Below are positions 36,133 to 52,213 of a stretch of DNA of 64,000 nt, in pieces. Position 1 is the stretch's first letter, and each line of letters opens with the position of its first letter. The notes under the pieces were generated by a model that saw nothing but the letters and a program-made list of their open reading frames with translations, ran no database searches and was not told the DNA's origin. The DNA is taken from positions 2,364,613 to 2,428,612 of the forward strand of contig AP021856.1 in the NCBI GenBank assembly GCA_017347445.1, given 5' to 3'. The stretch is from Candidatus Brocadia pituitae (lineage in GTDB: Bacteria > Planctomycetota > Brocadiia > Brocadiales > Brocadiaceae). The translations under genes and the position numbers were made by a program.

Positions 36133-39100
36133 CTACTTCCAAGAGATCCATTCACTTTCGGGAATATCGCCGACTCTACCCCCTGGGGCACCTGGGTAGT
36201 CCAAGCCTGCTTGTTCGATTGCATCCTGAACAGCATTATGACAATCATTTATCACTGGGAACCAAATCCCATTATCAGCATTCTCTTCCAAGAAATCCAT
36301 TATTTCATCTTCAAGCCCTACACTTCCTTCTACAAATCTACACGAATCTACGGCAGGTCCTAGCTCTGCAGTATGGTTATTCCAACTTGTTGAGCTTCCT
36401 TGCGTACCATATCCTTTTGGTCTATTCGGACTCCAAGCATACGCATGGTTGCCTACACCCCAACTTGTAGGTCTATTACAAACAAAAACTTGTAACCCCT
36501 GTGGATCATTCCATTTAATAGGATTATTTCCCACATATCTAAAAAGATTACTATCCCCACCAGTAAACCCGATTGGATCTTTTGCCGTCCACCGTCCGCT
36601 TTCAGAATCATAATCACGTGAGCCAAAACGGACGAGGCCGGTATCGGCGTCATACAAACCGCCTGCAAAGCTAAAGGGCTGGAAGCCTGGGTTGGTGTCA
36701 CTGATGACGTTGCCAAATTCGTCGTAGTCCATCCGCTGAACGATTTGTCCGGTGGATGAGTTGACCACAAGGCGCGGACTGCCCAGGTGGTCGGTAATGA
36801 TACGATAGGTCACACCACCCCTGATCATATAATCAGGCACATTGATATGGTTGGCATAGACAAAGCGGCTGACGATAGCGCCGGTATTGTCTAATTCTGC
36901 AATGGGCTTGAGTTGATCCTGATACAGGAATCCCTGTACCAACGCCCCATTGACCTTCTTCCCAATACGCCTGCTTTGACCATCAATGACATACTCAAGC
37001 TGCCTGCCGTCTGGTAAGTTCACAGAGACCAGGTTACCCAGGACATCATACCCATACGAGGTAGTCTCGCTCGTTGAAGTATTCGTTTTCGTAAGTAATT
37101 CACCATGTAAAGTATAGGTGTATGAATTGCTGCCGTACGTGATTAACCGGTCCTGCGCATCGTACGTACCTGTGGTGGTGTTATGGCTGAGCCTGTTGCC
37201 GTTGCTATCATAGGTATATTGGGAGATAAGCGCCCCATCCCTTTCCACGGTGGTCAACCTCCCTGTCAGGTCATACCCGTATTGGTACACATGGGTAATG
37301 CCATCCACCGTCTCTGTCTTTGTGATAATCCTCCCCAGTTTATCCCGTTCAAACAGCGTGGAAAAGATTTCGTTGGTGTCATAGGACGCGGTGTAATCTA
37401 TCACCTCACCAAAGCCGTTATACCCCAATATGTCACTTACGCTGCCCAAGGTGGTGCCGGTAATCATGCCATTCTGCGCATTTCTGCTAATGGTAAGATT
37501 TCCCGCCGCAGTGAGAAATCCATCATTGTCGTACTGGTAGGTAATTGCTGAACCACCATTTACCCTATTTGACGTAATCCAGAAATTGTTATTATACGTC
37601 TGGCTTACGCTGCCATTTATGGTGCCTGCCCACGTAGTACTTAAGGGTAATGAGCCGTCGTAGCTATAGGATAATGTTTCTCCACCCGGTGCTGCTATTG
37701 TGGTAAGCTGTCCTGTTGTATCATCATACGTAAATGCAATGGTCTGATTATCAGGCAAGGTGAAAAGTTCCAGCTTCCCTTTACTGTTGTAATCTAACCG
37801 GATAGTCTTCCCATCTGGCCTTATCATCGTGGATAATCGCTTATCAAGATTATACTCACGCAAGATAGGTGTGGTCACCAGACCAAGTGCAGGCGGGTTA
37901 TAAGCATCTTCCAGGTTCACTTTCGTGAATGAGAAGGTGTGGTCAGGTTTCCCCGGCGGCGTAATGGATGTCACATTCCCATTGGCATCGTAACCAAAAC
38001 CAATCTCTCTTGAATCTGGTAAAGTGAGCTGTGTCCTACGCCCTGCCTGATCGTATTCAAAGCGGGTATCCTGTGAGAGTGGATTACCCTGGGTATCAAG
38101 ATAACCACCGCTGTTGTAGCTAAACGAGGTAATACGCGCATCGGCACCCGTACTCATCGTAGTTGTTATCAAACGGCCTCGTGCATCGTACTCTAAGGTT
38201 ACCGGTTCGAGTTCAGGTACCACGACTTTTGTTACGCGTCCCTGACTATCTATCGTCGACGTGACCACCCTGCCCATGGGTGAGGTAGAGGTGCGCGTCT
38301 TTGTCGCTGCATCATATACATCCTTATATACCCGGCCGTTTATGGTACGGGTATCCGTTTGGGTCTGAAGGCTGAATGGGTCATCCTCGTCAGAAAGCGT
38401 TACCGTCCGTGCGCCGATGGTGGATTGCACAAGGCCACCGGGTGTTGTTGTCGTTCCGCTCAGGAGTACGGGCGATTGCATGCTGAACCTGGGGTCAGGA
38501 CCCATAAGGGCGCTTACGATCGTGCCATCAGGGTAGGTGGTCTCTGTCGAGCCGTCTGTACCTGTAATGGTCACGACGGAATTACCGCAGCAGAGGCTGT
38601 TCGTGCGCCTCTCCGCTCCGGTGGATAGGTGTTCTACCCTATACGTTTTTACCACGCCCTCTGCTGAGGTCGTTGTCACCTCGTAATCATTTCCGTCATT
38701 GGTGCGGTTCAGGGCAGTGAAACCACCTAAGGGGTCAACATCCTTAATCAACCTTCCTAGGGAGTCGTACGTATAGTTCTTGGTATTTCCCCGTGGATCG
38801 GTAAGGCTTGTGAGGAGGCCGTCAGCGGTGTAGCCCAGTTGTATGGACTCACCGGCAGGGTTCGTGACCCTTTCGAGGTATCCGTCGGCATTGAGCGCCA
38901 GGGTGGTGCGCTGACCAAAGGGCGCTACAATTGCCATGGGATTGCCGTCACCGTTGCGTTCAATGGTGGTGACGTTGCCGTAGCCATCCGTGATGCTTGT
39001 GAGGTATCCGTTGCTATCGTATTGAAATTCATAGATTACTGCATTGGTAAGGGCATTCAGGGTACGCAGGTGCCGGCCAGAAAGGGTAAAAACGTAAACC

Positions 39101-40041
39101 TCACTGGCATCTTCTGAGGGAACGGCAATTTCATGAGCCGAATTTATAGATGAAGGCAAAGATACCTTTCTGATGCGATCGTTGAAAGCATCGGCAATAT
39201 AGATACTGCCGTCATTCCCGATCGCTATTTCTTCTGGATTATTAAGCATTGCCGCTGTCGCCAAGCCACCGTCTCCGCCAAAACCCCATTCTCCGTTTCC
39301 CGCCACGGTGGTGATGATGCCGTCTGGGCCTACACGGCGGATGCGACTGTTACCACTATCGGCAATATAGATGCTGCCGTCACCCCCTATCGCTATTCCC
39401 CTGGTAACATTTAAACTTGCTTCTGTCGCCCGACCACCGTCTCCACCAAAATCGCGGTTGCCATTTCCTGCTACGGTAGTGATAATACCGTCTGGGCCTA
39501 CACGGCGGATGCGATAATTCCAAGCATCAGCGATATAGATACTGCCATCATTCCCGATCACTATCCCTTCAGGAGCTGATAGCATTGCTACTGTTGCCTG
39601 ATCACCGTCTCCGCTAAAACCCCATTGTCCATTTCCCGCCACCGTGGTAATGATGCCGTCTGTTCCTACACGGCGGATGCGATGGTTAAAAGTATCGGCG
39701 ATATAGATGCTGCCGTCATTCCCGATCGCTACTCTTCCTGGATAGTTAAGCATTGCCTCTGTCGCTTGACCACCGTCTCCGCCAAAACCACCGTTACCAT
39801 TTCCCGCCACGGTGGTGATAATGCCGGCTGTATCTACGCGGCGGATACGATGATTATCGGTATCAGCGATATAGATGCTGCCGTCACTCCTGATCGCTAC
39901 TCCTCTGGGTTTATATAGACTTACTGCTGTCGCAAGATCACCGTCTCCGCTAAAACCACCGTTACCATTTCCCGCCACGGTGGTGATGATGCCGGCTGTA
40001 TCTATACGGCGGATACGATTGTTATTCATATCAGCGATCAC
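36133..40041 (-). CDS. C-terminal fragment: NHL repeats, RHS repeats, RHS core and variable tip
   Basis: 1302-codon open piece after the IS4 element; its GTG start is formed by the insertion, so it is unlikely to be expressed as a proper secreted protein. Residues 1-290 hold five NHL repeats (IADTFNHRIRRVG type), about 300-1140 YD/RHS repeats (YDSLGRLIKDVDPLGG type), then the RHS core with DYDEFGNVISDTNPGFQPFSFAGGLYD split into YDEFG and PFSFAGGLYD motifs. After DPQGL, the usual self-cleavage boundary, comes a tip with VGNHAYAW and INDCHNAVQDAI: a His and a Cys in the order seen in some papain-like or permuted NlpC/P60-type effectors. A toxin role is inference. No immunity-type gene follows. 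Confidence 0.75.
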   Translation of the reverse strand: MIADMNNNRIRRIDTAGIITTVAGNGNGGFSGDGDLATAVSLYKPRGVAIRSDGSIYIADTDNHRIRRVDTAGIITTVAGNGNGGFGGDGGQATEAMLNYPGRVAIGNDGSIYIADTFNHRIRRVGTDGIITTVAGNGQWGFSGDGDQATVAMLSAPEGIVIGNDGSIYIADAWNYRIRRVGPDGIITTVAGNGNRDFGGDGGRATEASLNVTRGIAIGGDGSIYIADSGNSRIRRVGPDGIITTVAGNGEWGFGGDGGLATAAMLNNPEEIAIGNDGSIYIADAFNDRIRKVSLPSSINSAHEIAVPSEDASEVYVFTLSGRHLRTLNALTNAVIYEFQYDSNGYLTSITDGYGNVTTIERNGDGNPMAIVAPFGQRTTLALNADGYLERVTNPAGESIQLGYTADGLLTSLTDPRGNTKNYTYDSLGRLIKDVDPLGGFTALNRTNDGNDYEVTTTSAEGVVKTYRVEHLSTGAERRTNSLCCGNSVVTITGTDGSTETTYPDGTIVSALMGPDPRFSMQSPVLLSGTTTTPGGLVQSTIGARTVTLSDEDDPFSLQTQTDTRTINGRVYKDVYDAATKTRTSTSPMGRVVTSTIDSQGRVTKVVVPELEPVTLEYDARGRLITTTMSTGADARITSFSYNSGGYLDTQGNPLSQDTRFEYDQAGRRTQLTLPDSREIGFGYDANGNVTSITPPGKPDHTFSFTKVNLEDAYNPPALGLVTTPILREYNLDKRLSTMIRPDGKTIRLDYNSKGKLELFTLPDNQTIAFTYDDTTGQLTTIAAPGGETLSYSYDGSLPLSTTWAGTINGSVSQTYNNNFWITSNRVNGGSAITYQYDNDGFLTAAGNLTISRNAQNGMITGTTLGSVSDILGYNGFGEVIDYTASYDTNEIFSTLFERDKLGRIITKTETVDGITHVYQYGYDLTGRLTTVERDGALISQYTYDSNGNRLSHNTTTGTYDAQDRLITYGSNSYTYTLHGELLTKTNTSTSETTSYGYDVLGNLVSVNLPDGRQLEYVIDGQSRRIGKKVNGALVQGFLYQDQLKPIAELDNTGAIVSRFVYANHINVPDYMIRGGVTYRIITDHLGSPRLVVNSSTGQIVQRMDYDEFGNVISDTNPGFQPFSFAGGLYDADTGLVRFGSRDYDSESGRWTAKDPIGFTGGDSNLFRYVGNNPIKWNDPQGLQVFVCNRPTSWGVGNHAYAWSPNRPKGYGTQGSSTSWNNHTAELGPAVDSCRFVEGSVGLEDEIMDFLEENADNGIWFPVINDCHNAVQDAIEQAGLDYPGAPGGRVGDIPESEWISWK

Positions 40042-41366
40042 TAGTGTCCGGTTATAAGTTTAACAAAGACAATTGTTTATAAAGAACGCGCGGTTCGCTT
40101 TTGTAATCAGAATTTGTAAGTACTTGCAAAATAGGGACTTTCTCAAATAGGGTAATACTCAAAATTTGTAAAATTGTGTAGAGACTCATGTCTAAATTGA
40201 GGCGCTTTTTGATGATTGCAACAAGCACGTAAACGGAGATTGCAATCCATATTTGAGTTTTTACCGAGTTTTCAGAAGTACCGTAAAATGCTTTTATTCT
40301 CAAGTGTTGTTTTATCCACTTGAAAAATAATTCAATCTGCCAGCGAGATTTATAAATAAGAGCAATGGTAATGGCGGGAAGGGAAAAGTTGTTTGTCAGG
40401 AAAGTAAGATTTTTTTGATTTTCAGCATCGTAATAGCCCACTCGTCGTAACTTTTCCGGATAATCTTTCGCTGAGTCAGCATTTGAAAGAACTATGGTTT
40501 GATCGCATATCAGGCCAAGAGATTTATCAATCGGGTGTGAGTAGATTCTCCGAAATTTGAGATTTGTTTTAGAACGAATAACAAAGAATGCCAAGCACAA
40601 GGTGAGGTTATACAACCGTGCAAAGTCGAGATACCCACGATCCATTACGTAGAAAGAACCAGGCTCTGGAATAAGGTCGTCAAGAACGTTTATATCATGA
40701 ACCTTACCGTCGGTAATTTTGATAAACGAAGGAATGCTGCCGCGCAAATCCATGAGAGTATGCAGTTTTATAGCTCCTTTATACTTTCTAAATTTTGCCC
40801 AAGGAAAAAGGGAAAGGCATAAGTCAATCGTTGTGGAATCCAGGGCATAAACGGTCTGATCAAGGTCTATACAAAATTCATCATTACTGTAGAGGTCTCT
40901 TGCTCTATGAATCAATACTTGAGCAAAATCAGCATAAATATGCCAGTCTCTGTTCTCATTTGCATCCGCTAGAGTACTGCGAGAAACCTTACCACGAATT
41001 CCCATATGGTAGAGTTTCTCTTGCATCGAGCGCAGGCAGGCTTCAATATCCCGGAGGCTTTCTCTGTAGGTTAATTGAGCAAATGCCATACAGAGAAATT
41101 GATCAAAGCATGAAAAGCTTTTTACTTTGTGATTGCCTTCGTAACGCTGAACACATTTGCGAAATTCATGCATGGGTAAAAAATCGATTACTTGTGCGAA
41201 AACAGTTTTTCCTATATTCATGAGCCATTCCTTTCTGTTTGTTATGAAGAATAGAATGGCTATAGTATACGTTGAATTTCAAATCGATTACGACCTTTTT
41301 TGCTTGTATCTCTCTTGAATCATAGTATTTACAACAGATATTTATTTAAACATCCGGACAGTAGTG
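40039..41366 (-). mobile_element. Complete IS4-family insertion sequence with 9-bp target duplication
   Basis: 1328 bases. The ends CACTAGTGTCCGG (40039-40051) and the complement of 41354-41366 (CACTACTGTCCGG) match in 12 of 13 positions. ATCAGCGAT is present at 40030-40038 and again at 41367-41375, a 9-base duplication; removing the element and one copy rebuilds an intact NHL repeat (YIADMNNNRI). The insertion is thus recent and exact. Confidence 0.92.
40052..41221 (-). CDS. IS4-family transposase (DUF4372 N-terminus)
   Basis: 389 aa DDE transposase. The N-terminus NIGKTVFAQVIDFLP is the DUF4372 domain of one IS4 subgroup (ISPepr1-like, from memory). The catalytic residues are visible: ALDSTTIDLCL (first D), FYVMDRGYLDF (second D) and the Y-(2)-R-(3)-E-(6)-K signature as YKSRWQIELFFKWIK (glutamate). 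The frame is intact and the element has both ends, so it is probably active. Confidence 0.93.
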   Translation of the reverse strand: MNIGKTVFAQVIDFLPMHEFRKCVQRYEGNHKVKSFSCFDQFLCMAFAQLTYRESLRDIEACLRSMQEKLYHMGIRGKVSRSTLADANENRDWHIYADFAQVLIHRARDLYSNDEFCIDLDQTVYALDSTTIDLCLSLFPWAKFRKYKGAIKLHTLMDLRGSIPSFIKITDGKVHDINVLDDLIPEPGSFYVMDRGYLDFARLYNLTLCLAFFVIRSKTNLKFRRIYSHPIDKSLGLICDQTIVLSNADSAKDYPEKLRRVGYYDAENQKNLTFLTNNFSLPAITIALIYKSRWQIELFFKWIKQHLRIKAFYGTSENSVKTQIWIAISVYVLVAIIKKRLNLDMSLYTILQILSITLFEKVPILQVLTNSDYKSEPRVLYKQLSLLNL

Positions 41367-42797
41367 ATCAGCGATATAGATACTGCCATCATTCCCGATC
41401 GCTATCCCTACGGGCCAAGTTAGCATTGCCCCTATCGCCAGATCACCATCTCCGCCAAAATAAATACCGCCATTTCCCACCACGGTGGTGATGATGCCGT
41501 CTGTGCCTACCAGGCGGATACGATGGTTATTCATATCAGCGATATAGATACTGCCGTCACTCCTGATCGCTATTCCTGCGGGATTAGAAAACATCGCAGC
41601 TGTCGCTTGGCCACCGTCTCCACTAAAACCCTGATTGCCATTTCCCGCCACGGTGGTGATAATGCCGTCTGTGCCTACCAGGCGGATACGATGGTTATCA
41701 CTATCGGCAATATAGATACTGCCGTCACCCCCGATCGCTATTTCCATAGGAGTATTTAGCATTGCCTCTGTCGCCTGACCACCGTCTCCGCTAAAATCCT
41801 GATCGCCAGTTCCCGCCACAGTGGTAATGATGCCGTCTAGGCCTACACGGCGGATGCGATGGTTGAAAGTATCGGCGATATAGATGCTGCCGTCACTCCC
41901 TATCACTACTCCTTCAGGAAGTGAAAGCCTCGCTGTTCTCGCCTGCCTACCGTCTCCGTTAAAACCAGCCAATCCAGTTCCAGCTACAGTGGTGATGATG
42001 CCGTCTGTGCCTACACGGCGGATGCGACTGTTACCACTATCGGCAATATAGATAGTGCCATCACTACCTAATGCTATTCCTCTAGTAACATTTAGACTTG
42101 CTGCTGTTGCTTGACCACCGTCCCCACTAAAACCACGGCTGCCATTTCCCGCGACAGTGGTAATGATACCGTCAGTGCCTACACGACGGATGCGATGGTT
42201 CCAAGTATCAGCGAAATAGACGCTGCCATCATTTCCGATAACTATCCCTTCAGGAGCTAGTAGCTTTGCTGCTGTTGCCTGACCACCATCTCCAACACCC
42301 CCTGAAATGCTACTGATAGTGTCTCCGTATTTGTTTTTTGTTTTGCTGCTTGTCCCGTTACCGTAATAAACCGACCCGTCTGAAGGGTTGTAGCTATGAT
42401 TGACATCCAGGCACCAATGTCCCAGTCCGTTAGAAAGATTATTCCATATGCCAATTGCTACCTTCCATTCCTGCCATAGGGTAACCTCCTCGCGGGTTTG
42501 ATCACCAGTAATGGGAATACCATTACCGTTGTATCCAAAACGTTCTACCTGCTGATAAACCCCCTGATATGTATATCCAATACGCACCGTGACGGGTTGA
42601 GTTCCCTGTACGGTACGCCCATAGGCATCGTTACCGTCCCAGGTAAAGAGGTGCGTCAGGTTTGGCGCAGGCGCGAAGCTCTCGGTAAATATCCGTCCCG
42701 CAACAGTAACCTCAAGCTCGATACTTTTGAGGCTTGCAGGGATACTCGTTCCACTGAGCGGGATATTCAAAGAATAGGCAGTTTTACGGCCTGGCAC
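41346..42797 (-). CDS. Middle fragment of the broken RHS gene: entry segment and six NHL repeats
   Basis: 483 codons from a GTG; the frame is open up to the amber codon at 43008, so the natural protein includes about 70 more residues upstream (TPWDANWPFGPP, an acidic proline-rich run, GTPFNLHYQSDRVPG). Six NHL repeats (DGSIYIADTFNHRIRRVG type) follow residues 1-180. The last is cut by the IS4 element, after which the frame ends at HYCPDV inside the element. NHL repeats form beta-propellers, which usually bind proteins or sugars outside the cell. It is unlikely to be expressed by itself. Confidence 0.7.
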   Translation of the reverse strand: MPGRKTAYSLNIPLSGTSIPASLKSIELEVTVAGRIFTESFAPAPNLTHLFTWDGNDAYGRTVQGTQPVTVRIGYTYQGVYQQVERFGYNGNGIPITGDQTREEVTLWQEWKVAIGIWNNLSNGLGHWCLDVNHSYNPSDGSVYYGNGTSSKTKNKYGDTISSISGGVGDGGQATAAKLLAPEGIVIGNDGSVYFADTWNHRIRRVGTDGIITTVAGNGSRGFSGDGGQATAASLNVTRGIALGSDGTIYIADSGNSRIRRVGTDGIITTVAGTGLAGFNGDGRQARTARLSLPEGVVIGSDGSIYIADTFNHRIRRVGLDGIITTVAGTGDQDFSGDGGQATEAMLNTPMEIAIGGDGSIYIADSDNHRIRLVGTDGIITTVAGNGNQGFSGDGGQATAAMFSNPAGIAIRSDGSIYIADMNNHRIRLVGTDGIITTVVGNGGIYFGGDGDLAIGAMLTWPVGIAIGNDGSIYIADHYCPDV

Positions 42798-43007
42798 ACG
42801 GTCACTCTGGTAGTGAAGGTTAAAGGGCGTACCAGTAATACCAGTCTCTTCACCCAGTGTTTGTTTCTGAACCCCGATGATGGAACCTGGCAGCAGGCAT
42901 TGATTCTCGTCTTCCTCAGGCGGCTCCTCTTCTGGCGGTACCGCGTCATCAGGAGGGCCAAACGGCCAGTTAGCGTCCCAGGGGGTGAAGTGTTTTATGG
43001 GTACACG

Positions 43008-44990
43008 CTATAGGCTTTGACCAGTGGTATAGAGCGACCCAAGCCGCCCACGCTCTTCATCGGTAATCCCCAGGCTGCCGTCGTTATCTGCTGCATCATC
43101 GCCATCGGTGTCTATGTCTGCCCTGCCGCCGGTGATGCTTACGATCTTGATGATACGTCCGTTATCGGAGGGTATCCATTGCCCTTTTCCCCGGTCGTAA
43201 TACCCTGACGGCACCGAGATACCCACAGGGAAATTAAGAAAATTGTCCACGTAAAAGTACAGGGGCTGGTTGAACTGTACATCGGTAGCACCGGCGGATA
43301 ACGCCTCGTCCACACTCATCTCTACACAGTAGGTGTAACCGACCTGGGGCGGTAGTGGTGCAGGCATATTTTCCGGCCCATTCTCTCCCACCGTGTATTC
43401 CGTTGCCCTGACGTTCAGGGAGGTTAATGGTTGCGTCGTGCCGTCAGGGAGCACCATCTCGGCGCTCGTTCCCGCCGGGAAGAGTATCGTGGCGGTGCGT
43501 ATGCCGTCGTCATCTTCCACCGTACTACCTTGCGCCACCTGCATTTCGACGCTTGCAGAAAGGTCAATGGTGGCGACCTGCGGGTCTACCGGGATCATAA
43601 CCACGTCCGGCAGCCATGCATAATCCTCCCACGGGGCATCCACCTGGCGTTGGGCCGGTAAATACCCCTCTTTCTTATAGTTGACGGTAAGTAATCCACC
43701 GCCGTTGACGGCCATATCAAACATCCCATCCGCACGGCTCAGGGTCTGGCCAAATTCAGGGTGGCTCAGGATGGTCATGGTAACACCCCTGAGCGGCTGA
43801 TTTTCTTTATCCAAAACCTTGCCACGCAACACGGCGCACCGGTATGCCTTGATGGTATCCGTACCCACACCGGTCTGGATGGGATTTTCACCCGTGTAAA
43901 GAAACGCCGTGGCAGAGCCCATTGTGGTTGCAATGGTTAAATCCAGTTCCGGCGCCACATCAGCGGGATCGGGTGGCAGAGTTGGTGTTGGCGTGTGCGT
44001 TGGGGTTACCTCTGGTGTAGGCGTTGGCGAAGGTGACGGCGTTGGTAGCACAGTGGGTGTTGGTGTTGGTGTAGCGGTCGGTGTTGGTAACAGAGTCGGC
44101 GTTGAAGTAGGAGATGGTGCTCCTGTCGGTGTCGGTTCAACGGTTGGACTCGGTGTCGAATTCGGGGTCGGTGTTGGGGTGTCGACCGGCGTAGGGCTTG
44201 GCAACGGAGTATTACATGGCGTGGGACTTGGCTCCGCAATTTCCTCAACCACGGCGTTTGCGTCCACAAGGAAACTAAACTTCTTCCCCTTGTGCTTTAC
44301 CCTGAAGGTAAGAACGGTCGTTGTCTCGCCAGGATGCAAAACCACGTCAGCGCCAAAGGTATTAGAAAGCGATTCGGGAGTTGGCAATGTAATGATCTCT
44401 ATCTGCCCCAGAGTCGTCTCCTCATTCACCGTGAAACAAAAAGGCTGGTGAAAGGTCTTGTCGTTTGTTACGTTCTTGAATGATGCCCTGATTTCCAAAG
44501 AGTTATTGCTTTGAAGTTCATAGGCATAGCTCGCCTGCCACAGTTCCGCATCTTCACTACATCCGGACTCTGTATCCTCTGTACAGGGTACCAGCATCCG
44601 CGCCTGACCTTCAGGCAGACACTGGTTCTCGATTGTACCTGCATCTAAGGAAGAAGCGGATCGGATGGCGGATTTGCTGACGCTTGTGCGTCTTTTCTTT
44701 ACTGCCTTGACCGTTCTCTTTGTTGGGTCTATGGTAAAACCAAAAGAAGGGGCAGTAACGGCGGACGGAGCGGCAGATATCCGTTGTTTCTTTATCGCAT
44801 GCGCTAGTATTTTTTGGGGATTACCTTGAAATCCCCGATCACTTTCCCCCGAAACTCGCTTTCCATAGCCGGTTGCCCTTGCGGTATTTGCCTGGACAAA
44901 AGGAAGGAAAAACATCGAATAAAAAAGGGATATGATAAGCAGGATAGAAACGTATTTTACATTTTCACGGACATACCAGTTGCGGAGCAT
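43008..44990 (-). CDS. N-terminal fragment of the broken RHS gene (secreted, Pro/Thr-linker)
   Basis: 660 codons ending at the amber stop. The ATG at 44990 has GGGGGA upstream and begins a signal peptide ([22 protein letters not shown]); an in-frame upstream start is less likely. About residues 260-355 are a Pro/Thr/Ser linker of PTPTPT type, visible in the DNA as a GT-rich run at 43970-44225. Next are a carboxypeptidase-regulatory-like beta-sandwich ([20 protein letters not shown]) and a segment resembling the teneurin/RHS N-terminal region ([34 protein letters not shown]). It could still be made and secreted as a truncated protein lacking the propeller and RHS shell. Confidence 0.75.
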
Positions 44991-45089
44991 GAAGGTTCCC
45001 CCTTTCTGACGTTTGTGGATAGGTGTGCAATGCCCACCCTTTCGATTCCATTTCTGAAAACAAAAAAAGCCTGTCTTTTTACGGCTCAA

Positions 45090-46432: not shown

Positions 46433-46671
46433 TTACGCTATTAATCCGAGCCTTTTGAGGTTGTCTTCATTCCACTGTGTCCCATTGAGAAAATTTTTGA
46501 GTGTGCCAGGAGGAAGGGTATCTTTCGCGTGATGATAATGGATAACAACGCGTCTACCATCAGTACGCCGATAAACTCGCTGGCTGCCTTTACGTCTTGT
46601 ATACTGGAATCCATCTTTTTCGACCACCCTGATGAGTTCTCTAACGGAAGTGTTTTAAGCCTGTGAATCAT
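46433..46671 (-). pseudogene. hicA: hicA toxin gene with frameshift
   Basis: The ATG at 46671 overlaps the stop of hicB (ATGA), the normal coupling, and reads MIHRLKTLPL. The HicA body then continues in another frame: RELIRVVEKDGF, RKGSQRVYRR and the catalytic-histidine region VIHYHHAKDTLPPGTL, to a stop at 46433. The two parts fit together if one base was lost around 46643. The downstream piece alone (64 codons from a GTG at 46627) lacks the first helix. HicA normally binds and cuts mRNA; this copy should be inactive. Confidence 0.82.
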
Positions 46672-46907
46672 AGAGAAATTGCTATGGCAGGTTCATTTAT
46701 AACTTCTATGGCATCTGATAGCGTTGGCAAGTTCTCACCGGCGGCTAACATGTCTTCAATGTATATTTCAGCGGCATCTTTTATATTTTCCAGGGCTTCT
46801 TGTTTGGAATATCCCCAACTGGAACAACCAGGCAGGACCGGAATTGAAGCGCTCCATCGGCCATCCTCTTCTTCGGTTAAAGTAACTTTTAAAACCAATG
46901 TCTTCAT
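46668..46907 (-). CDS. hicB: HicB-family antitoxin
   Basis: 79 aa. Typical HicB: LTEEEDGRWSASIPVLPGCSSWGYSKQEALENIKDAAEIYIEDM, the degenerate RNase H fold that covers HicA. AGGAGG precedes two adjacent ATG codons (46910 and 46907); I chose the second for spacing. The gene lies upstream of its toxin on the minus strand (the hicBA order). The frame is intact while its toxin is broken. There is no obvious C-terminal DNA-binding domain. Confidence 0.88.
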   Translation of the reverse strand: MKTLVLKVTLTEEEDGRWSASIPVLPGCSSWGYSKQEALENIKDAAEIYIEDMLAAGENLPTLSDAIEVINEPAIAISL

Positions 46908-47297
46908 CATAAACCTCCTGTTTAAAAAATTTAAATTCCTCCTTATTTGGCAATTTTATTGTGAATTGTTTTATAAATCAAGATATATCCGTTAAACTTA
47001 CGTAGGTAAAAAATACGCAGGTTTAGACACAGATAAACAAACAGGCAACGATTTTTTCGTTCACCGCAGAGGACGCTGAGACCGCAGAGAAATTAACGTG
47101 GGATGGAACCACAGAGGGCACTGAGACAGAGTGCAGACAGGTGGGAGGCATGGACAAACTTGTTTGTCCGTGTGCCATTGCCTTATTAACAATTAAGGGG
47201 TTAAGGAAAGACAACAGATGGCAGACGACTGTAACTATCTGTGGACTCTGTAACTAAATTTTGATAGTATTCAATTTTAAGAAAGGAGGTGAGAAAA
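46908..47297. other. Intergenic region before the RiPP cluster
   Basis: Contains ACCGCAGAGGACGCTGAG-type words (47078-47095) and TTTGTCCGTG (47161-47170), both common dispersed repeats. The promoter of the peptide cluster should lie after 47200, but I cannot point to a clear one. Confidence 0.4.
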
Positions 47298-47480
47298 ATG
47301 TCAGAAAAGATTTCAGCAGGAGACATTGGTCAGGCGGAACATGGTTTACCTGCTTCCCACACCAGGAAGCCTTTTGCGGAGCCCAAATTAACCTTCATTG
47401 AGCCAAAGCTTACAAAGCATGGCGATGCAACCAGGATTACGCATCAGAGCAATGGGTTTTTTAGTGCATTTGTACCGTAG
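47298..47480 (+). CDS. RiPP precursor peptide with lasso-type leader motif
   Basis: 60 aa. The ATG at 47298 has the strong ribosome site AAAGGAGG 7 bases upstream. Residues 33-48 (FIEPKLTKHGDATRIT) match the lasso leader signature YxxPxLxxxGxxxxxT exactly, with F for Y; a second partial copy lies just before (FAEPKLT, 26-32). In lasso peptides the conserved Thr is the second-last leader residue, so cleavage is expected after H49, giving the core QSNGFFSAFVP. That core has no Asp or Glu and cannot form a lasso ring. The peptide lies 17 bases upstream of an HPr-kinase-like gene, followed by radical SAM, PqqD-like and B2 protease genes. I infer that it is the substrate of this set. Confidence 0.75.
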   Translation: MSEKISAGDIGQAEHGLPASHTRKPFAEPKLTFIEPKLTKHGDATRITHQSNGFFSAFVP

Positions 47481-47497: not shown

Positions 47498-48523
47498 ATG
47501 AAAAAAGAGGACGAGAAGTTGGGAGGATGGGAAGCTGAGATGGCCGAAACAGGGGTTGATTTCTACTCTTTGTACGAATTGATCATTGAGGTTCGATGGG
47601 AAGGGGAAGGAATCGAGGATGAGCTTGAACAGTTCTTCTCTTCCTTTCCCTTTACCCAGGTAGGAGGGAGCGGGCATGCTGCTGATGTTACCTTACATTT
47701 TGCAGCTACGGATACCCCGCTAAAAACCCCTTATTCACAGGTAACGCCTCTTTCTTTCTATGATTTATCGATTTATGAAATGGGGGGGTCTGTTTATATT
47801 TCTGACGGGTTATCCAGTTTTTATGCACAGCCTCAGGCAGGTATGGGGCAGATAACTCTCTATGGCAGGGGTAAGGAATCGCATCGTGTATCGAAGCACA
47901 ACCTTTTTCTCGTTGGTCTCTTTCATCTCTTGCCTTACCAAAATCTCTATCACCTCCATGCTGCCGGACTCGTGAGAGATGAGAAAGGGTATTTGTTTAT
48001 TGGTGAATCAGGGAGCGGCAAGTCAAGTCTTTCCCTGAGTCTCGTCCGTCAGGGCTGGCGCTACCTTTCAGACGATGTGCTTTTGTTTCGACCATCAATG
48101 AACGGTGTTGAGGCGCTGTCCTTTCGCAAGCAGTTTTTTCTGGATCCAGCTTTGTCCCGTCATTACCACGAGATATCTGCCCACCTTGAGGAAACTCCTT
48201 ATGGTGACGATACGAAACAGCTTTTCGATGTGGAATCAGTCTATCCGGACCAATTCAGTTCAAACTGTTTCCCCAGGATATTAATTTTTACCCGTATTGT
48301 GCCTCATGCTGAAAGCGCACTGGTTCCTATAGACCGGGCATCCGTCATGGTCAGACTGATGCAACAGAGCGCCACCCTGTTCTTTAACCGTCAGGTAGTC
48401 AGGGCACATGCGGATGCTTTAAAACGGCTTCTGTATCAGACCACGCATTATCAATTGTTTGCCGGCGTTGATTTACGGGAAGATCCAGCAAAAATTTCTG
48501 AGATCTTAGGATGTCATGAATGA
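47498..48523 (+). CDS. HPr-kinase-like P-loop protein of RiPP cluster
   Basis: 341 aa. The C-terminal half is the HPr kinase/phosphorylase fold: YHLHAAGLV, the P-loop GESGSGKSSLSLS and the SDDVLLFR motif, whose aspartates serve catalysis. The N-terminal 150 residues are less clear. Proteins of this type occur in lasso-peptide clusters, where some phosphorylate the C-terminal serine of the precursor (paeninodin type). The core peptide here has serines (S51, S56) that could be targets. It starts 17 bases after the peptide gene and overlaps the radical SAM gene by 8 bases (ATGAATGA). The role in this pathway is inferred. Confidence 0.82.
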   Translation: MKKEDEKLGGWEAEMAETGVDFYSLYELIIEVRWEGEGIEDELEQFFSSFPFTQVGGSGHAADVTLHFAATDTPLKTPYSQVTPLSFYDLSIYEMGGSVYISDGLSSFYAQPQAGMGQITLYGRGKESHRVSKHNLFLVGLFHLLPYQNLYHLHAAGLVRDEKGYLFIGESGSGKSSLSLSLVRQGWRYLSDDVLLFRPSMNGVEALSFRKQFFLDPALSRHYHEISAHLEETPYGDDTKQLFDVESVYPDQFSSNCFPRILIFTRIVPHAESALVPIDRASVMVRLMQQSATLFFNRQVVRAHADALKRLLYQTTHYQLFAGVDLREDPAKISEILGCHE

Positions 48524-49511
48524 CGTTCACATCATTTTTGAACTTACCAATGACTGCAATCTGCGCTGCGCGCACTGCCTGAGGGACAAATCGTCTCCGC
48601 ATGGATACCTGTCTTTAGAGGTCATCGAACAGGTTTTAAGGGAAATGCAATCTTTCCATCGCATCAACATGGTCTCTTTCACCGGCGGTGAACCTACCTT
48701 GCACCCACAATTCCCGGAGATCATTAGGATAGTCGCCCACGGAGGGCACCGTTTTGGTTTTGTGACCAATGGCTGGCATTTTTCTGGCACCTACCATGCG
48801 CTCTTACCGTACAAGTCTCTGCTGAAAGCGGTCACTTTCAGTCTGGATGGCGCGCGGGAAGAGACGCACGACGCCCTTCGCGGAAGAGGCTCATACCGCA
48901 AACTCATGCAGGCCATGAGTATTTGTGTGGTAAAGGACATTCCCTTTACCCTGAACACAACCGTTACCGCTCATAACTGCGATGAGTTACAGGAAATGGC
49001 AGAGTTTGCGACGAAACTGGGAAGCCAGGGGCTGAGGTTCGGTCATCTCTTACCCACTCCTTTGACGGCAACGCAGAGGCTGGATGTATCACCTGATAAA
49101 CGAAGAGAGGTGGAAAATACCGTCTCACGGCTTCAATGCGTCTTTCCTTTACGAATTTCCATGGCTCCAAGGGACTATATTGCACCGAATATCCCATGCG
49201 CCCCGTTGCGGATGGAGGAATTCAATATCGACTGGCGCGGCAATCTCACCCTGTGCTGTAATTTGTCCGGGCATGGAGATGGTGTGGGAAACGGAGATAT
49301 CATAGGCAATTTGCATGAGATGAGTTTTTCTGAGGCTTATAAACGCCTGGTTAAATTGAATAGGAAGTTTTTTCATGATAAGAGCCGGGACATGAGAGAT
49401 GAGGACGTAGATTCCTTTCCTTGCTGGTATTGCCTGAATCATTTTAAGAAAGTAGATTGGCTTAAGTATTATCTTGAAAATCCGTGGTCAAGCCTTGTCG
49501 GGACGAAATAG
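48516..49511 (+). CDS. Radical SAM enzyme with C-terminal cysteine-rich (SPASM/twitch-like) region
   Basis: 331 aa. The cluster-binding motif CNLRCAHC (C14, C18, C21) is near the N-terminus, followed by the SAM-binding VSFTGGEPTLHP and the strand motif FSLDGAREETHDALRG. Near the C-terminus are further cysteines (IPCAPL, LTLCCNLSG, FPCWYCLNHF) in the style of SPASM or twitch domains that bind auxiliary Fe-S clusters, as in peptide-modifying enzymes. The gene overlaps the kinase gene and is followed by PqqD-like and B2 genes. Location strongly suggests the precursor at 47298 is the substrate. The bond formed cannot be read from the sequence. Confidence 0.85.
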   Translation: MNDVHIIFELTNDCNLRCAHCLRDKSSPHGYLSLEVIEQVLREMQSFHRINMVSFTGGEPTLHPQFPEIIRIVAHGGHRFGFVTNGWHFSGTYHALLPYKSLLKAVTFSLDGAREETHDALRGRGSYRKLMQAMSICVVKDIPFTLNTTVTAHNCDELQEMAEFATKLGSQGLRFGHLLPTPLTATQRLDVSPDKRREVENTVSRLQCVFPLRISMAPRDYIAPNIPCAPLRMEEFNIDWRGNLTLCCNLSGHGDGVGNGDIIGNLHEMSFSEAYKRLVKLNRKFFHDKSRDMRDEDVDSFPCWYCLNHFKKVDWLKYYLENPWSSLVGTK

Positions 49512-49707
49512 TATGCGTTGTAAAGTATAGATCGTGAACTATAAATCAGGCTGCCTTCGGTAGCAACACAAATTACCCCTCCCTTGACGGGAGGGGCGAG
49601 GGGAGGGTGATACGCTATTTCCCTTCACCCCCACCCAACCTCCCCCATCGAGGGGGAAGAACTCATTGTTTGAAATTTCTTGTACATTAAATGGGCAGAG
49701 GGAATCG
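49512..49707. repeat. Spacer with GC-rich hairpins inside the RiPP cluster
   Basis: CCCCTCCCTTGACGGGAGGGG (about 49576-49596) is a hairpin related to the one at 28011; a second run, CCTCCCCCATCGAGGGGGA, follows at 49650-49668. This 196-base spacer splits the cluster into two parts. Confidence 0.45.
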
Positions 49708-49992
49708 ATGATCCAGTTAAACCAGCATATTACACCGGATCCAGAGGTTATTGTCACGGAACTGGAGGGCAAAGAGGCCGTTCTTCTCCATCTGGGCACA
49801 AGGATGTATTTTACCTTAAACGAGACAGGGCTGCGGATCTGGCAGATGTTGAGTAGCGGTCTTACGCCCGGAGAGATAAGCGAACGGCTTTTAAAAGAAT
49901 TCGATATTTCCCCTGAGAAGGCCAGGGAAAGTGCACTCAATCTCATTCATGAACTTATTCAAGAGAAATTAGTAAAGATTTCTGATGGGTAG
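49708..49992 (+). CDS. PqqD-like RiPP recognition element (lasso B1-like)
   Basis: 94 aa. The PqqD fold is recognisable: EGKEAVLLHLGTRMYFTLNETGLRIWQML, then SPEKARESALNLIHELIQEKLV. Such winged-helix proteins grip the leader peptide through the YxxP region and hand it to the enzymes. I chose the ATG at 49708 with GAGGG 5 bases upstream over an upstream start at 49666. It overlaps the B2 gene by 8 bases, so the two are coupled, as lasso B1 and B2 are. Confidence 0.87.
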   Translation: MIQLNQHITPDPEVIVTELEGKEAVLLHLGTRMYFTLNETGLRIWQMLSSGLTPGEISERLLKEFDISPEKARESALNLIHELIQEKLVKISDG

Positions 49993-50482
49993 TCAAACAG
50001 GGATCATGCAGAAATTCAGGGTAAATTTCACCTCTTTCCGGGAGGTGTGGCTTTTTATCCAAATCTTCTTCCTGGTTACTCTATCACCGGTAGCGCTCAG
50101 GCTATTCTCCATTCCAAGGCTTATGAGGATATGTACCCCCCGGTATTTGAAGGTTTATGAAGGCAGGAACCGGGAGAATTTAAGAGCAAAGGCCGTGAAG
50201 TTCACGGACTATATCCTGGGCTGGAATGCCTTGAGATGTAGAAATACCTGTCTCAAACGCGCGCTGGTGCTCTATTATTTTTTGAGGAAATGGGGGATGG
50301 ATGTGCGGGTATGCTTTGGGGTAAGATATGCGGCGCACAAGAGGCTTGACGGCCATGCCTGGCTGCTTTACCAGGGCGACATTTTTCTGGAAAGAAACAC
50401 CGAACGGACAAAGGCCTACACGCAGACGTATTGTTTTCCTGATACGATGGAGCAAATTAAACAAAATTATCACCATGGCTGA
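49985..50482 (+). CDS. Lasso-type B2 leader peptidase (transglutaminase-like)
   Basis: 165 aa, Transglut_core3 family. The catalytic cysteine is in CRNTCLKRALVLYYFLR and the histidine in LDGHAWLLYQGDIFLE, with an aspartate nearby. An N-terminal hydrophobic stretch (VWLFIQIFFLVTLSPVALRLF) may attach it to the membrane, as in other B2 proteins. The start may be at 49985 (ATG overlapping the B1 stop) or at 50006, where AGGGATC precedes the ATG. B2 proteins cut lasso leaders after the residue following the conserved Thr. Confidence 0.88.
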   Translation: MGSQTGIMQKFRVNFTSFREVWLFIQIFFLVTLSPVALRLFSIPRLMRICTPRYLKVYEGRNRENLRAKAVKFTDYILGWNALRCRNTCLKRALVLYYFLRKWGMDVRVCFGVRYAAHKRLDGHAWLLYQGDIFLERNTERTKAYTQTYCFPDTMEQIKQNYHHG

Positions 50483-50914
50483 TCGTATAAATTAGTTATT
50501 AAGTGGGGCTTCTCGGTCCCCCGCTGTCGGGGGTAAGGGGGTGGAACAAACACATGAAAGCCAACTCAAAAAGCAATTATGCCTATAACTGCAAATTACA
50601 GCCCCTTGCAAATAAGGTGCGTGGTTGAAGAAAGAGAAAAGTCCACCCCCTTCACCCCCGCCAGCGGGGGACAAACAAAAATCCCCCTTTGAAAAGGGGG
50701 ATTCAGTGGGTTGTCTGGTATGCTATGATACAACGTTGAAATTCCAATACATAAATTAGGTCTTCAGCGACTTTCCCCCCCTGTTTCCCCCCGTAAACTG
50801 GGGGATTATGGGGGGTAATTGAAATTCCTAAACCTTAATTGGCCTTCGGCAACTTTTTCAATGTAGAGAGACGAGGCTCGTCGCTCTGCAACCGCGGCTT
50901 TGAAATTCGAGAAC
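50483..50914. other. Intergenic spacer full of G/C-run repeats
   Basis: Hairpins built from CCCCC/GGGGG runs lie around 50515-50540, 50640-50665, 50680-50702 (AATCCCCCTTT-GA-AAAGGGGGATT) and 50778-50815. They resemble dispersed intergenic repeats. No gene seen. Confidence 0.4.
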
Positions 50915-52213
50915 ATGAACATATCACACAAAAACAGACTCTTACTCCATTGCCTTCAGGCAGGTATCTCCGGGGATAGAGAAGATACCATTCGGGACAT
51001 CATAAGCCCTGCCTTAAACTGGGAAGAGGTCTTAGCGTCTGCTTCTCACCATGATGTTGCACCATTACTGTATCGCAGTCTAACGAATATCGGCAAGGGC
51101 AATGGCATCCCCCAGGAAGTCATGGACCGGCTCAGGACCGCCTATCTCGATAATTTAGCCAGAAATATGTACCTGTATGCCGAACTCAGGAGGATTTTGG
51201 AGACGCTTTATAGAAAAGACGTACAAGTGATTTTTCTCAAGGGCGCTGCCCTGGCGAAAATGGTTTACGGGGATATTGGTTTAAGACCGATGAGTGACGT
51301 TGATATCTTAGTCAGAAGGGGAGATTTATCAAAGGCAGTGGAATTGTTATTTCACATGGGGTATGGTTTATACAATGATCAGGAGGCGCAGAACCGAAAT
51401 ATTAATGTGAAAGAACTGATTAACACCTATAATCGTCATGTACCTGCTTTGAGCCATCCAAGAGGAATACAAAAACTGGATATACATTGGACAATACCAG
51501 ACAGCCCATTCACTATAGCGGGTTTATGGGAAAGGGCAAAAACGATAAAAATTGACAAGGCAGATGTCCTGGTACTCTCCTTAGAAGACCTTCTGCTGCA
51601 TCTGTCTTTACATACTTCCGTTCATCACAAATTTCATGATCACGGGCTAAAACAACTCTATGATATTGCGATAACGATTCATCAGTATCTTAAGGAAATC
51701 GATTGGGATCAACTTCGACTTCGTGCTTATGAGTGGAGAACAGGGAAATACCTGTATCTTACCTTACGCCTTTCCCGGGAGATTCTCGGAGCAATTGTGC
51801 CAGAAAGAATTTTATCTGCCCTTAAACCAAAGGCATTCAATGAAAAATTACTTATGGAAGCCAAAAGGCGTATCCTTTTTCAGAATGGAGGGAAATCCGA
51901 TCAGAAATCTTCTTTTGAAGACATTCCTCATCTTGATAAATTTCATCCCGACAACAACCTTTTGAAAAGAGCCTCGTTTATTTTCAAGAGAATATTTATT
52001 CCTCCTGCAGAACTGGCATCTCTCTACTCGCTGCCGGCATCTTCCAGGCATATTTACCTTTATTATTTTCTCCGATTTATCTCACAACTACACCGTAACA
52101 TCCCCAGATATCTTCCTTTTTTTCTTTACCTGTTAAGACAGAGAAAAGAATCTCCCTACATTCATAATCTGGACTTATGGCTAAATACCCAGGACTTTAA
52201 CACAAGGTTGTGA
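50915..52213 (+). CDS. Nucleotidyltransferase family protein (NTP_transf_5) of RiPP cluster
   Basis: 432 aa. The fold is marked by VIFLKGAALAKMVYGDIGLRPMSDVDILV, where GDIGLRPMSDVDI carries the metal-binding D-x-D pair. Members of this family accompany lasso and related peptide clusters and are thought to modify the peptide or a carrier; their reaction is not settled. I chose the ATG at 50915; a TTG at 50900 is in frame. The C-terminal region (about residues 330-430) is basic and hydrophobic. It is 430 bases from the B2 gene, so it could have its own promoter, but the direction and family suggest it is the last gene of the cluster. Confidence 0.82.
   Translation: MNISHKNRLLLHCLQAGISGDREDTIRDIISPALNWEEVLASASHHDVAPLLYRSLTNIGKGNGIPQEVMDRLRTAYLDNLARNMYLYAELRRILETLYRKDVQVIFLKGAALAKMVYGDIGLRPMSDVDILVRRGDLSKAVELLFHMGYGLYNDQEAQNRNINVKELINTYNRHVPALSHPRGIQKLDIHWTIPDSPFTIAGLWERAKTIKIDKADVLVLSLEDLLLHLSLHTSVHHKFHDHGLKQLYDIAITIHQYLKEIDWDQLRLRAYEWRTGKYLYLTLRLSREILGAIVPERILSALKPKAFNEKLLMEAKRRILFQNGGKSDQKSSFEDIPHLDKFHPDNNLLKRASFIFKRIFIPPAELASLYSLPASSRHIYLYYFLRFISQLHRNIPRYLPFFLYLLRQRKESPYIHNLDLWLNTQDFNTRL

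Follow-up and report, generated by a model that had tools for sequence, protein, structure and literature searches.

A probable RiPP precursor with a lasso-type leader beside a radical SAM enzyme in the anammox bacterium Candidatus Brocadia pituitae

What becomes of a small peptide whose leader is of the lasso type and whose core has no acidic residue? The question is raised by an open reading frame of 60 aa at 47298..47480 (+) of the window, the 64,000-nucleotide stretch of the Candidatus Brocadia pituitae genome (4.08 Mb, one contig) analysed here. Its translation is MSEKISAGDIGQAEHGLPASHTRKPFAEPKLTFIEPKLTKHGDATRITHQSNGFFSAFVP. The ATG start is directly preceded by AGAAAGGAGGTGAGAAAAATG, a near-perfect Shine-Dalgarno sequence (AAGGAGGTG, 47284..47292, +, five bases ahead of the start codon region); a promoter scan upstream of the gene found none on the + strand. 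Residues 33-48 (FIEPKLTKHGDATRIT, 47394..47441, +) form an exact F-x-x-P-x-L-x-x-x-G-x-x-x-x-x-T, the lasso leader motif YxxPxLxxxGxxxxxT with F for Y and Thr at -2, and its first half is repeated at residues 26-32 (FAEPKLT, 47373..47393, +). Neither the single nor the doubled motif recurs anywhere else among the 127,996 residues obtained by translating the window in all six frames. P36, L38, G42, and T48 are invariant in a diverse alignment, and the half-motif at 26-32 is kept in 15 of 15 anammox copies and in most of the distant copies with a duplicated leader. Translation and motif scan thus confirm the reading frame and the duplicated F-x-E-P-K-L-T leader of the original prediction, which had taken the gene for a RiPP precursor. 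That assignment is borne out by the conserved reading frame and leader and by same-strand genes for a maturase, an RRE, and a leader peptidase in one cluster. Judging from the sequences, the core is probably modified by the adjacent radical SAM enzyme, working with leader machinery of the lasso type.

Five genes follow the precursor on the same strand. The first encodes an HPr-kinase-like peptide kinase (341 aa, 47498..48523, +; HprK_rel_A 52.8 bits, below the cut-off of 200). Its residues H154, K175, D192, and D193 are invariant in 11 of 11 aligned homologues and presumably correspond to those of PadeK, lasso kinases having His-Lys-Asp-Asp catalytic residues (PMC9266682). The radical SAM/SPASM-type enzyme, the candidate core maturase, is encoded two genes downstream of the precursor (331 aa, 48516..49511, +; PF04055 1.4e-23). 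Next comes a separate, B1-like RRE of the PqqD type (94 aa, 49708..49992, +), nearest to lasso B1 proteins (TbiB1, 5v1u, E 1.2e-7) and to lasso PqqD models, though below their cut-offs (lasso_PqqD_Bac 50.7 bits, cut-off 80). A lasso B2-type leader peptidase (165 aa, 49985..50482, +) scores above the cut-off of its family (NF033537 49.4 bits, cut-off 33; PF13471 2.1e-13), and its C89 and H124 are invariant in 11 homologues. The fifth gene encodes an NTP_transf_5 protein (50915..52213, +; PF14907 2.2e-60), whose ATG at 50915 agrees with the MNISHENRLLL start of the homologues; such proteins close most clusters. The gene after it is a bacterioferritin.

The kinase and radical SAM genes overlap by 8 bases, as do the RRE and B2 genes, as in translationally coupled genes. 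Gaps of 196 bases and about 430 bases lie ahead of the RRE and NTP_transf_5 genes, respectively. The inserts in these gaps, at 49512-49707 and 50483-50899, are repeat-like and of low complexity, with runs such as CCCCCGCTGTCGGGGG. The order precursor, HprK, (GNAT), radical SAM, RRE, B2, and NTP_transf_5 recurs around most of the anammox copies and in Myxococcota, Nitrospiraceae, and Nitrospira, a GNAT gene standing between HprK and radical SAM in three loci (L032, L033, and L035). In one Anammoxibacter genome (G001), the GNAT gene is present and there is no HprK gene beside the precursor; thus, the kinase is not obligatory.

The radical SAM enzyme has the CxxxCxxC motif, followed by C228-x13-G242-x4-C247 and C303-x2-C306. 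This C-terminal Cys set looks like a reduced SPASM domain with one auxiliary cluster. Cys137 is invariant in the alignment of homologues. The predicted structure (mean pLDDT 84.8) has its closest folds in BlsE, SkfB, SuiB, the viperins, PqqE, and CteB. The enzyme scores far under the cut-off of every named maturase family, and its reaction therefore cannot be read off from them; the nearest catalytic-domain model is that of the mycofactocin maturase MftC, at 88.7 bits against a cut-off of 265, and assignment to mycofactocin was rejected. On the radical SAM tree, for which a midpoint root served for drawing only, the enzymes of the window and of one relative (G033) stand apart from the other anammox enzymes. 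The NTP_transf_5 protein shows the same split, with 74% identity to that of G033 and 33-39% to the others.

By the lasso T-x rule, the predicted core comprises residues 50-60, QSNGFFSAFVP (47445..47477, +), which contain F-F-x-x-F-x-P. Of these last 11 residues, three are Phe and two are Ser; Asp, Glu, and Cys are absent, in agreement with the composition originally given. F55 and F58 are invariant in 15 of 15 anammox copies. Among the cores compared are FFSAFVP, FFGTFVP, FFSIFKP, LFGTFTP, FFGTFVS, FFGTF, FFGSFAP, FFNVFTP, FFGSFTP, FFGPFSP, FFGAFSP, FFGQFSP, AFGSFS, FSAPFSP, and FSIPFSP; those of the FSAPFSP type lack F55. Phe58 is invariant outside Acidobacteria, whose cores have FFQA in the same Thr register and retain the Phe pair alone. 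The FFS cores (window and G033) pair with a radical SAM lineage separate from that of the FFG cores.

The leader motif and its register to the core are preserved across phyla. The Phe pair of the relatives starts 2-6 residues past the same Thr, with one to five residues between, and this segment looks like a spacer; the spacing agrees with the core boundary after T-x as first predicted. The C-terminal F-x-x-F-V-P pattern proposed along with it stood in part: its two Phe residues are those invariant in the anammox copies, but the terminal Pro, although common, is not universal, since one core stops at the last Phe (G032) and another ends in Ser (G020). Overall, the C-terminal residue may be P, F, S, A, E, D, N, or V, and several cores are 6-9 residues long.

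What, then, would the radical SAM enzyme do to such a core? The triceptide motif is an aromatic-x-x pattern. F55-x-x57 fits it, and the enzyme next to it has the reduced SPASM set. The triplet F54-F-G56 usually ends in Gly, which has no beta carbon, and F58-x-P60 is unconserved at its last position; therefore, F55-x-x57 is the only candidate triceptide site in FF-type cores. A Phe-centred side-chain crosslink, with F55-x-x57 as the favoured site, is our first choice of chemistry, and we offer it tentatively. It may be instead that the enzyme makes another change to the core, such as epimerisation, C-methylation, hydroxylation, or a C-terminal decarboxylation like that of mycofactocin, and this too is a possibility of some weight. 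MftC is the closest catalytic-domain model, the invariant Cys137 could serve as a hydrogen donor, and radical SAM epimerases such as YydG are RiPP enzymes (PMC9266682), with a weak match here. However, the varying last residue speaks against a fixed C-terminal reaction, and the strict aromatics with free variation between them would seem to fit a reaction at side chains better.

All 23 cores compared have a Ser or Thr at some variable position, and the position moves. Shuffling of the alignment columns gives an expectation of 3.8 cores without Ser or Thr, every core having one in 0.23% of trials (p 0.002), and in 3% (p 0.03) when 16 distinct cores are used, statistics that are inflated by related sequences. 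A kinase target whose place in the core may shift would match this pattern.

The best reading of these genes is a RiPP family with lasso-type leader binding, cleavage, and phosphate tailoring, in which the radical SAM enzyme would replace the cyclase. We infer every catalytic step, and the order of the steps, from the sequences. The separate RRE would first bind the F-x-x-P-x-L segments of the leader, and their doubling might let it bind in two registers or allow two partners to bind. The radical SAM enzyme would then modify the core before cleavage, the likeliest product being an oxidative crosslink from the conserved Phe pair. The HPr-type kinase, like PadeK, would phosphorylate a core Ser or Thr, and the NTP_transf_5 protein might elaborate the phosphate, as PsmK and PsmN do in pseudomycoidin (PMC9266682). 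Finally, B2 would cut one residue past the conserved Thr (Thr at -2) and, in most members, release a product of 6-14 residues.

It is tempting to go further and see here a distinct RiPP class spanning several phyla, with lasso-type recognition and cleavage and an F-F-x-x-F core that is crosslinked by a radical SAM enzyme, phosphorylated, and decorated; we regard this as somewhat doubtful. If it is correct, a core that varies so little would be more in keeping with a signal or cofactor than with an antibiotic. That the product is a conserved signal or a small cofactor-like molecule made by the logic of PQQ and mycofactocin is a speculation of its own, rather unlikely as matters stand. In its favour, the core is nearly identical across phyla, unlike those of fast-changing bacteriocins, and the clusters contain no recognisable gene for immunity or for a dedicated ABC exporter. 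Its distribution is patchy (12 of 62 genomes of the order), however, no dedicated user protein was found, and the core varies at four positions.

Whatever the product, a lasso leader, RRE, B2, and kinase module without a cyclase, coupled to a radical SAM maturase, is present in anammox bacteria. Such loci may be mislabelled by genome-mining tools that rely on the lasso leader or the lasso RRE. The defined core motif, small gene set, and many natural variants make the chemistry directly testable in E. coli. We found no anammox RiPP product described in the open-licence literature searched, nor any description there of the precursor, core, or gene set, which may have been reported elsewhere.

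Several known systems resemble parts of the cluster. The kinase-bearing lasso clusters of paeninodin (PadeK) and pseudomycoidin (PsmK/PsmN) share with it the leader motif, a separate PqqD-type RRE, B2, an HPr-type kinase with His-Lys-Asp-Asp, and a nucleotidyltransferase-type protein (PMC9266682). The present clusters differ in having a radical SAM enzyme instead of a cyclase, a core without a ring acceptor, a doubled leader half-motif, and Ser or Thr that is not fixed C-terminally; the window precursor ends in Pro, with its Ser/Thr inside the core rather than in a C-terminal Ser. The available text of the RRE-Finder study (2020) notes some 300 RREs of the lasso type adjacent to radical SAM enzymes and describes no precursor, core motif, or product for them (PMC7470986). 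The present family plausibly belongs among those loci and, given the number noted in that text, is a variant on a known pairing of lasso RRE and radical SAM enzyme, not a new kind.

Triceptides and other cyclophane RiPPs likewise combine a short aromatic core with a radical SAM/SPASM-type maturase; unlike them, the present clusters have a lasso-type RRE and B2, a reduced SPASM Cys set, and a radical SAM enzyme outside the named subfamilies. SynChlorMet has the same three kinds of protein (ScmC, kinase-like; ScmD, PqqD-like; ScmE and ScmF, radical SAM), and the models for ScmE, ScmF, and ScmD rank with the better-scoring ones, though far below cut-off. Here, by contrast, there is one radical SAM gene, and B2 and NTP_transf_5 are present; SynChlorMet was rejected on scores of 81.8 of 400 (ScmE), 25.5 of 100 (ScmD), and 15.3 of 125 (ScmC). 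PQQ and mycofactocin also have a separate PqqD-type chaperone, a radical SAM-SPASM enzyme, and a near-invariant core, and PqqE and MftC are among the nearest relatives of the window enzyme. Their leader, protease, and core are unrelated to those found here, where there is no Glu-Tyr or Val-Tyr pair.

Might the peptide be a lasso after all? The original prediction had excluded both lasso and thioether chemistry, and both exclusions held. No Cys occurs in the core of any aligned precursor, and sactipeptides and ranthipeptides were rejected on that ground. Asp and Glu are absent from core positions 7-9 in the window and its relatives, save for an Asp at 8 in one distant Acidobacteria locus (L050). 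No lasso cyclase lies near the cluster, and in the complete host genome PF00733 has three weak partial matches, the best at 25.9 bits over 195 bases and the nearest about 150 kb away. Together with the lack of any strong cyclase match, short cores that have no ring acceptor make a lasso ring very unlikely. The locus could be a decayed lasso cluster that has retained some of its genes, and the inserts between the radical SAM and RRE genes and ahead of NTP_transf_5, along with the decayed copies known in two relatives (G022 and G023), would suit this; it is highly improbable, since all five genes in the window are open with intact motifs and the leader has a pN/pS of 0.115. Equally, leader, B1-like RRE, B2, kinase, and NTP_transf_5 are all components of lasso clusters, and a lasso peptide closed by a cyclase whose gene lies elsewhere, and only tailored additionally by the radical SAM enzyme, would account for them. 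We give that explanation hardly any credence in view of the PF00733 matches in a one-contig genome, the missing Asp or Glu at 7-9, and the several cores that, at 6-9 residues, could not accommodate both a ring and a threaded tail.

The possibility that the precursor is a chance reading frame, to which its shortness and lack of a Pfam match might point, can be set aside with near certainty because third codon positions diverge while the amino acids stay conserved, a ribosome-binding site is present, and the frame keeps a constant position ahead of the same genes in relatives. The substitution pattern of the leader block (23 codons) refutes it: over all pairs, pS is 0.699 and pN 0.080, for the pN/pS of 0.115, and the window differs from one relative (G017) by 8 synonymous differences in 15.7 sites and by 0 non-synonymous in 53.3. 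The precursor is a real gene whose leader is under strong purifying selection. Lack of conservation or a non-coding pattern, which had been named in advance as grounds for abandoning the gene, is thus countered by the homologues and this ratio.

A clear precursor is present in 12 of the 62 genomes of the anammox order, and all 10 genomes with the radical SAM enzyme also hold it (Fisher p 6e-10, without correction for relatedness). Of the remaining two, G017 has its precursor at the end of a contig and G022 next to a decayed cluster. Solitary precursors also occur, e.g., at G044:C10. A Planctomycetota-wide search found none convincing outside the order; the single weak match there (G164, E 0.006) is not a small ORF. 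Homologues are nevertheless found beyond the order, in Myxococcota, Nitrospirota, and Chromatiaceae. Scanning a collection of species genomes with the radical SAM alignment turned up the cassette again in a MAG of Deltaproteobacteria/Myxococcota (L037), two Nitrospiraceae (L044 and L047), a Nitrospira (L046), and a Thiohalocapsa (L053), and more distant gene sets in KSB1 (L048) and Acidobacteria (L049-L051). Searches for the precursor found one Myxococcota genome only (G418) and a genome of the same order as L053 with GFFSPSFNP (G878). In the phylum to which L044 belongs, they added two genomes whose precursors adjoin the same genes and have one leader motif but an unchanged type of core, DFFGTFSP and AFFGSFRP.

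Conservation of the leader motif, which the original check asked for, is qualified: near relatives keep the duplication, every anammox copy among them, and it is present also in L037, L044, L046, L047, L053, and G878, but the homologues with a single motif, in Nitrospirota, KSB1, and Acidobacteria, lack it. G630 and G684 combine an FFGxF core with one leader motif; duplication is thus characteristic of lineages and is not needed for that core. The single and doubled states cluster on the tree, whose inner branches are weakly supported.

Some copies are damaged. A partial second copy of the 3′ part of the precursor, in another reading frame, lies at L025:2154-2219 in G023 and resembles a tandem duplication with a frameshift. 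HprK is split between frames at L028:7839-8847 (G020) and at L025:10689-11679 (the second G023 cluster), as a result of decay or of sequencing errors in the MAGs. The radical SAM genes at L032:9996-11003 (Scalindua, G045) and L035:6614-7618 (Anammoxibacter, G001) have an in-frame TAG where a Trp is otherwise conserved, and the tail that follows (..NPW..) can still be recognised; the two enzymes are not sisters on the tree. Pyrrolysine was rejected because no PylS scored above cut-off, and these codons were treated as early stops. G031 has two radical SAM copies of equal score (C1:55489-56469 and 4188483-4189463); at the second of these (L128), the RRE is partial and the precursor search gave no match.

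An exported protein of ~190 aa, secretin/STN-like by eye, with no Pfam match and ending in F-K-F-E-F-D-P, is encoded near many clusters (L037:3349-3924, L032:2329-2892, L035:8934-9509, L047:517-972, L126:9067-9648, L030:13893-14408, and three copies in L033). Within the anammox order, only precursor-bearing genomes (5 of 12) match it strongly; it was rejected as an obligate member because the host genome lacks any match and 7 of the 12 have no strong one. Upstream of the precursor in the window, two overlapping small ORFs (46441-46910, -) resemble a HicA/HicB toxin-antitoxin pair by eye, with no NCBIfam match. Further upstream (36133-45089, -) are large secreted proteins with teneurin-like NHL, TTR-like, and RHS-type regions, and large beta-propeller, beta-helix, or VWA proteins likewise adjoin the cluster in relatives.
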